Shown here: in pieces, positions 26,501 to 27,682 of the stretch
Position numbering within the stretch: position 1 is the stretch's first letter
How the letters are laid out: every line of letters begins with the position of its first letter
Assembly (NCBI RefSeq): GCF_042242105.1
Contig: NC_092027.1
Location: 6,050,006-6,114,005 of the forward strand
Source of the DNA: Pempheris klunzingeri
Taxonomy: Eukaryota > Chordata > Actinopteri > Acropomatiformes > Pempheridae
DNA: 64,000 nucleotides
Direction: 5' to 3'
The notes under the pieces: generated by a model
The model's input: only the letters and a program-made list of their open reading frames with translations
Databases searched by the model: none
Told to the model about the DNA's origin: nothing
Position numbers and translations under genes: made by a program

Positions 26501-27682
26501 TGGTTTGTAAAGTAGAACTGTTGTTTACACTGAGCGCAATACTGAGACCATCTAATATGTTGTCTTGCGATGTTAAATGCTGTCGTGTTACCCACCTATT
26601 CAGTGTTTCTCCTGACTCAGGCTTCACTATTCTAACAACACATTAACACAGCGGGCGCTCCACCTAACACACTGTGACGAAGTGGTTCTCTCACTCTGTA
26701 AAGTCTGGACTGCAGTATTATGTAGACGTAGGGCTTTAGACTCAGGTTGGTGAACTAACAGCTGCTGCTTTCTTCCTCCCCCTTAATGCTGCCCCCACCC
26801 CCAGTCCTTCTGCCATGTTTGATTATGACTTTGAGTAAGTCTGAATTTTACTTCCTGCTCCTGTGGTGTCTACGTCCTGCCTGCTGTAAACCCGCATCCT
26901 CCACCTTTCCACCGTTTTTCCTGCTCTCTGCCTGCTTCTGTCGACCTAGACTTTGAGCTTAAGTCTGCTAGTTATTCCGTCATACTGCATGTCCGATACT
27001 TCATTCTTTAATTTTGAATGCACATCAGCATCCAGCACTCTGAACTCCATTAAATATTCTTGCTTGTTACTGGGTTTCTTCACGTCTTTTTAACCCCAGA
27101 TTCATTTCCAGTATGCCTCCCTCACTTTCAGCAATTAAATAAAGCATTGCTGGTCCTGTCCGATGCTCAGTTGGCCACAGATTTGTGCACAAACAAGAAC
27201 AAGCACATGATCATTTAGTGTTCTTGTTATGAGCTTTTTTTTTAGGCTTCTTCATGAGACAGTAGTTGTGCTACTTTTCACCATAATTCCCATCAAAACC
27301 AGGTTCATGATGTGTTTAACTAATGCAGCCATACCTTGTTTTTGTTGCAGATTTGACATGAAGGTCAACAAGAAACCGAGAGCTGTAAGTCAAATTATTC
27401 TGCTTTGTTTATCTGAAAATACTGTTTTTTTTAAGGATGCAACTAAGAACAGTTTTTGTCTATAAAATGTCAAAATAGTAAAAATAATTTCCCACAGCTC
27501 AAGGAGGTGTCTTCACCCACAACACTTCAGAACCTAAAGATGTTCAGTTTACTATCATATATGACAAAGAAAATCATTGAATTGTCCCATTTTAGAAGCT
27601 AGAAACCGCAACTATTTGGCATTTTCCCCTAAATGTTTCTCATTCTTTGTCCTCTGTCGTCCTGCAGGATTATTCAGCCTAA
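23578..27682 (+). CDS. meaf6: Chromatin modification-related protein MEAF6 (Eaf6)
   Basis: Exons from the canonical start: 23650-23739, 24550-24665, 24992-25079, 25174-25219, 25316-25508, 27351-27384 and 27668-27682, giving 582 nt, 193 aa, against 191 aa for the human short isoform as I recall it. An optional 30-nt microexon at 26805-26834 makes 203 aa. The protein begins [19 protein letters not shown], continues with the Eaf6 coiled-coil helix ([19 protein letters not shown]), then [20 protein letters not shown], an acidic Ser/Glu-rich stretch and a basic tail [10 protein letters not shown]...NKKPRADYSA. MEAF6 is a small scaffold subunit shared by NuA4/TIP60, HBO1 and MOZ/MORF histone acetyltransferase complexes, and acts in the nucleus. 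An in-frame ATG at 23,578 would add 24 residues; I take 23,650 as the main start by homology. Confidence 0.97.
25748..25769 (+). repeat. (TTA)n microsatellite in meaf6 intron
   Basis: Seven TTA units follow AAGTCATTTGGATAAAAGTGCC, which resembles the 3' tail of an old non-LTR retrotransposon, so the repeat may have started as such a tail. Confidence 0.75.
26805..26834 (+). other. meaf6: 30-nt alternative microexon of meaf6
   Basis: The segment is bounded by CCCCCAG and GTAAGT, is exactly 30 nt and keeps the reading frame between the exons ending 25508 and starting 27351. It inserts [15 protein letters not shown] residues before the [11 protein letters not shown] tail. The human longer MEAF6 isoform carries a near-identical segment (SPSGMFDYDFE, from memory) and its inclusion is reported to be neural and driven by SRRM4. 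TGCTGC lies about 10-20 nt upstream of the acceptor, in the place where SRRM4 binds UGC motifs. Tissue use in this fish is inferred, not seen. Confidence 0.85.

Follow-up and report, generated by a model that had tools for sequence, protein, structure and literature searches.

A close described counterpart of the exon considered here is exon 6 of human MEAF6, for which Lee and colleagues reported that SRRM4 induces the exon-included form MEAF6-1 and, using SRRM4 gain, knockdown and RNA-ChIP, that SRRM4 is recruited to MEAF6 intron 5 adjoining the 3' splice site (PMC5438622). SRRM4 is described as acting at UGC motifs located between the pyrimidine tract and the exon (PMC5247714). When neurons and progenitors of human organoids are compared, a skipped exon of MEAF6, reported with neither the exon nor the direction named, is among the most significant (PMC10842930), and differential transcript usage of MEAF6 is reported between iPSC and cortical neurons (PMC12308531). 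A meaf6 microexon in zebrafish, conserved with mouse and developmentally regulated, was deleted by CRISPR, which the authors checked to be clean, and its loss gave mild neural phenotypes; the same study counts 42 of 95 conserved microexons with a UGC plus pyrimidine layout and 44 with a similar one (PMC12626420). Microexon inclusion in the zebrafish retina is affected in a major way by loss of srrm3 and only very slightly by loss of srrm4, in a paper whose main text does not mention meaf6 (PMC12626424), and a review that tabulates transcription regulators targeted by SRRM4 names others and leaves out MEAF6 (PMC11701043). Because the human regulation and the zebrafish deletion are published, the exon is already known, and the microexon, its type of regulator and the conservation of the exon between fish and mammals are all in print.

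We analysed a window of 64,000 nucleotides of DNA from the fish Pempheris klunzingeri, which contains, on its + strand, a complete teleost meaf6 gene with eight coding exons and AG/GT borders at each intron. Coding exon 1 (23650–23739) begins with the ATG at 23650 and is followed by a GT donor; exon 2 (24550–24665) encodes part of the NuA4 domain and is followed by exon 3 (24992–25079), the constitutive exon 4 (25174–25219), and exon 5 (25316–25508), directly upstream of the microexon. The microexon, exon 6, is at 26805–26834 according to the gene model and the protein isoform rows, exon 7 lies downstream of it at 27351–27384, and the last coding exon, exon 8 (27668–27682), encodes DYSA and the stop codon. 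The product has 203 amino acids with the microexon and 193 without it, contains a NuA4 domain (PF09340) at residues 18–96 (E 7.8e-28), and matches halibut MEAF6 isoform X2 (P0001) at 98% identity over the whole query length. Since halibut belongs to the percomorphs, the match suggests a percomorph origin for the window. Six of the ten neighbouring reading frames scanned match a Pfam family (sperm-tail PG-rich repeat twice, LIM or FHL2/3-type LIM three times, and palmitoyl thioesterase once), and the gene neighbourhood presumably resembles human 1p34. Elsewhere in the window, overlapping open frames at 15560–16166 on the - strand read as long Ser-Ile-His-Pro repeats and are probably a minisatellite.

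The microexon is exactly 30 nt long and in phase, with CCCCCAG before it and GTAAGT after it. Each junction falls inside a codon, so that with the exon included eleven residues stand in place of a single Arg, a net gain of ten. A sequence-only reading of this DNA had described a 30-nt in-frame exon with consensus splice sites, and we confirm that observation in this fish meaf6: the coordinates are exact, the borders are AG and GT, and the frame is intact. At 30 nt the exon lies outside the strict definition of a microexon as 3–27 nt (PMC7935315); the meaf6 exon is counted among microexons in PMC12626420. The C-terminal end of halibut P0001 is the same as that of the window inclusion form except for the last residue. 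As the exon is known in this fish from DNA alone, it could in principle be a spurious match that is never used, but an open frame of eleven conserved residues between two intact borders and the near-identical annotated halibut isoform P0001 argue against this, and the isoform rows make it so very unlikely that we give it practically no credence.

The earlier reading had also considered the encoded peptide to be almost that of the human exon. Rows from Mus, Macaca and Rhinopithecus (SPSGMFDYDFE) share 10 of 11 residues with the window peptide, and the peptide of human MEAF6 exon 6 is presumably a near-counterpart. No human row is among the MEAF6 matches listed, and the human side of the comparison comes in part from PMC5438622.

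We examined the C-termini of 147 MEAF6 proteins, consisting of 120 listed of 1138 matches together with 27 new ones from a second listing of 80. The peptide is present in 39 and the skip junction in 35, while the remaining 73 are other or incomplete ends, including for example read-through into the intron. Both forms occur in the database rows across bony vertebrates, all of these rows coming from species other than this fish. Inclusion rows among the matches listed come from mammals, reptiles, birds, amphibians, teleosts, and the bichir Erpetoichthys, and the exon therefore dates back at least to the bony vertebrates. No shark or ray inclusion form is among the matches listed, P0055, P0065, P0129 and P0131 all being skip forms, in a set of protein rows whose 90% clustering can hide isoforms, those of sharks and rays included. 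NRHSP is found at the same junction in 38 of the 147 rows, and in these seven of the eleven peptide positions are invariant and the other four differ in at most seven rows each (S/P 37+1, G/A 31+7, F/Y 36+2, D/H 37+1). The isoform rows, together with the human and zebrafish reports, uphold the proposal that the exon is conserved, alternatively spliced, and part of a gene for a histone acetyltransferase subunit.

Conservation of the exon could also be accompanied by loss of the switch, such that the exon is constitutive in this lineage. The strong GTAAGT donor is compatible with this, and for some fish (P0074, P0111) only an inclusion row is among the matches listed, although other isoforms may exist. 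However, skip-form rows are present in several other teleosts (e.g. P0007, P0009, P0011, P0035) and the acceptor context is C-rich and interrupted by UGC, and we regard constitutive inclusion as highly improbable.

Other variation in the MEAF6 C-terminus was also observed. The proteins of Dallia, Salvelinus, Osmerus and Oncorhynchus (P0002, P0003, P0004, P0026) have a further 23-residue cassette directly before FDMKVN, accompanied by the microexon peptide in three of them and without it in P0026. A tblastn search of the window for this cassette matched the downstream exon, plus the microexon where the query contained it, and the other hits shown had E values of at least 0.3 and were outside the gene; this fish therefore seemingly does not have the second cassette exon, although a diverged copy could be missed. 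Mammal and bird rows P0029, P0032, P0127 and P0128 have DFEYVY or DFEYIY as their last residues, and RHRYVY closes P0051 and P0097; the sequences of these ends suggest an alternative 3' end that may be usable after either exon 5 or exon 6.

The region upstream of the microexon contains, in 5' to 3' order on the + strand, a CTAAC, a TGCTGC, a pyrimidine tract, a second TGCTGC, a C-rich stretch, and the CAG. The CTAAC (26755–26759) was assigned by eye as a branch-point-like site from the branch-point consensus, and its A at 26758 is 46 nt before the acceptor G. The distal TGCTGC is at 26763–26768 (-42 to -37), the C/T-rich pyrimidine tract at 26769–26784 separates the two UGC clusters, and the proximal TGCTGC is at 26787–26792 (-18 to -13), between the tract and the acceptor. 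The TGCTGC previously noted just upstream of the acceptor is therefore present at -18, and there is a second copy at -42. The proximal copy is a predicted SRRM3/SRRM4 site, its position being as described for SRRM4 (PMC5247714), and the arrangement is that of SRRM3/SRRM4-type exons, with UGC between the pyrimidine tract and the 3' splice site.

TGCTGC is found in 0.67% of window 17-mers, counting both strands, and at least four TGC are found in 0.86% of window 50-mers. We defined acceptor-like sites as YAG with at least 75% pyrimidine at -23 to -4, giving 201 sites on both strands of the window, a filter passed by two of the seven meaf6 acceptors (exons 6 and 8). Four of the 201 have at least four TGC in 50 nt and three have TGCTGC at -20 to -4, and a single site, the microexon acceptor, has both, under thresholds that were picked after the site was seen. 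None of the six other meaf6 acceptors has TGCTGC in 100 nt. The statistical backing for UGC enrichment at the microexon within the window is modest.

A different account of the same layout is that the exon is real and alternative and the UGC motifs and SRRM proteins are incidental, with inclusion governed by another neural regulator, either by lost PTB repression at the tract or by RBFOX or NOVA. The C/T-rich tract that separates the UGC clusters is consistent with this, as is the commonness of TGC triplets, of which the exon 4 acceptor has four in 50 nt without forming a TGCTGC. However, in LNCaP cells SRRM4 alone among a panel of factors including PTB is reported to have switched MEAF6 splicing (PMC5438622), and a TGCTGC between tract and acceptor is in the position described for SRRM4 (PMC5247714), such that action through another regulator is improbable. 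Regulation by SRRM4, as named in the sequence-only reading, stands in part: the UGC is placed as for SRRM4 targets and the human SRRM4 data agree, but SRRM4 alone is too narrow for a fish because srrm3 loss dominates microexon inclusion in the zebrafish retina. By analogy, Srrm3 would be at least as likely as Srrm4 to be the regulator in fish. The sequence-only reading also asserted that the UGC sites survive between fish and mammals, which we treat as a supposition.

We also considered whether RNA structure could expose or hide the splice sites. The fold of 26700–26900 has a z score of -0.52 and its stability is matched by 55 of 200 shuffles, and this reading was therefore rejected. No Rfam match in the window reaches the gathering score. 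The intron that precedes the microexon contains a long fold-back hairpin at 26158–26299, with imperfect arms at 26135–26217 and 26240–26322 (RNA MFE -66.5 kcal/mol, z -10.1, a stability reached by 0 of 200 shuffles); the 17-nt core of its arm is found in the window in the two arms alone, and the hairpin is perhaps a palindromic transposon relic.

The segment 26805–26834 is very probably the teleost copy of the MEAF6 microexon, likely included in neurons by SRRM3/SRRM4 through the upstream UGC motifs and skipped elsewhere. In this fish, Srrm3 or Srrm4 would bind the two UGC clusters flanking the pyrimidine tract and draw the early spliceosome to an otherwise bypassed acceptor. The acidic-aromatic peptide thereby added would be positioned outside the helical NuA4 domain and could extend a candidate docking motif of strand type within the C-terminal tail, which is predicted to be disordered. 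With the longer motif, the acetyltransferase complexes that contain MEAF6 may bind different partners in neurons.

AlphaFold2 predicts for the halibut inclusion form P0001 helices at residues 15–92 and 97–101 followed by an unstructured tail, with mean pLDDT of 54 and 47 in the ten-residue blocks covering microexon residues 175–185. For the teleost skip form P0009 it predicts a helix at 15–95 and an unstructured tail, with a somewhat higher block pLDDT of 52–66 over the last 28 residues. No strand is predicted by AlphaFold2 in the tail of either P0001, which has the exon, or P0009, which lacks it. Sequence searches at E values up to 0.001 gave no match to a solved structure for the MEAF6 family, and with the limit relaxed to E 10 the family profile hit two chains, both belonging to other proteins, the better at E 0.056.

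The tail of the inclusion form has a perfect hydrophobic/polar alternation of 12 residues, FDYDFEFDMKVN, which is the only run of at least seven in the protein; the hydrophobic class was defined as V, I, L, M, F, Y and W, in a test that was picked after the pattern was seen. The tail of the skip form has an alternating run of six (FDMKVN or IDLKLN), and with the exon the run doubles from six to twelve residues (FDYDFEFDMKVN or FDYDFEIDLKLN). When the 27-residue inclusion tail is shuffled, a run of twelve arises in 73 of 100000 trials, and for the 17-residue skip tail a run of six arises in 5075 of 100000; the skip-tail run by itself is therefore hardly unusual. The tail could be read in 68 of the 147 listed proteins and not in the other 79; as these rows represent related species and isoforms, they are not independent of each other. 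In every one of the 68 readable tails D, K and N occupy the three polar positions that follow the exon, and the three hydrophobic positions vary as I/F/M, L/M/I/V, and L/V/M/I with one exception, a Pro. The alternating hydrophobic/polar run and its extension by the exon are new here.

This tail pattern would fit docking as a strand through the pattern of side chains, lengthened by the exon, and ET- or AHD-type pockets are candidate strand-addition partners. We offer as a speculative proposal, and one that we think rather unlikely to hold, that the microexon may be a length switch for a candidate strand-type docking motif, retargeting neuronal MEAF6-bearing MYST acetyltransferases while leaving complex assembly unchanged. 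Among the listed papers linking MEAF6 to linear motifs or the ET domain, PMC12789522 included, we found no strand-docking proposal, and in yeast NuA3 the ET domain of Taf14 binds Sas3 and Eaf6 is within a helical bundle. Counting against a docking role, AlphaFold2 predicts no strand in the free tail, and loss of the exon in zebrafish is mild (PMC12626420). If the proposal is true, neurons would redirect MEAF6-bearing MYST acetyltransferases to a strand-addition partner. The interactions of MEAF6 isoforms are named as an open question in a review (PMC5891588), and the alternating pattern gives a concrete and testable docking hypothesis for the ten added residues.

Among the systems to which this locus can be compared, the SRRM4-dependent exon L of protrudin is alike in the position of UGC relative to the tract and the acceptor (PMC5247714), whereas the window has a second UGC cluster just upstream of the tract and its sites are predicted ones. 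The zebrafish exon is a meaf6 microexon in another teleost (PMC12626420), and its identity with the window exon, going by gene and description, is presumed. Relative to mammalian MEAF6, the window peptide differs by an Ala at the position that is Gly in most mammal rows (SPSGMFDYDFE). Human MEAF6 exon 6, the inclusion of which distinguishes MEAF6-1 from MEAF6-2, is an alternative exon of the same gene that adds ten residues, and it too has a candidate regulator site adjoining the 3' splice site (PMC5438622); it differs in that SRRM4 regulation was seen in human cells, whereas this fish is known from DNA alone. As with MEAF6-1 exon 6, we find here a NuA4/Eaf6-type gene, a 30-nt in-frame exon adding ten residues at the same junction, and, in the rows from other species, both isoforms. 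The microexon would be a long-conserved neuronal option on a subunit that is common to several MYST acetyltransferase complexes.
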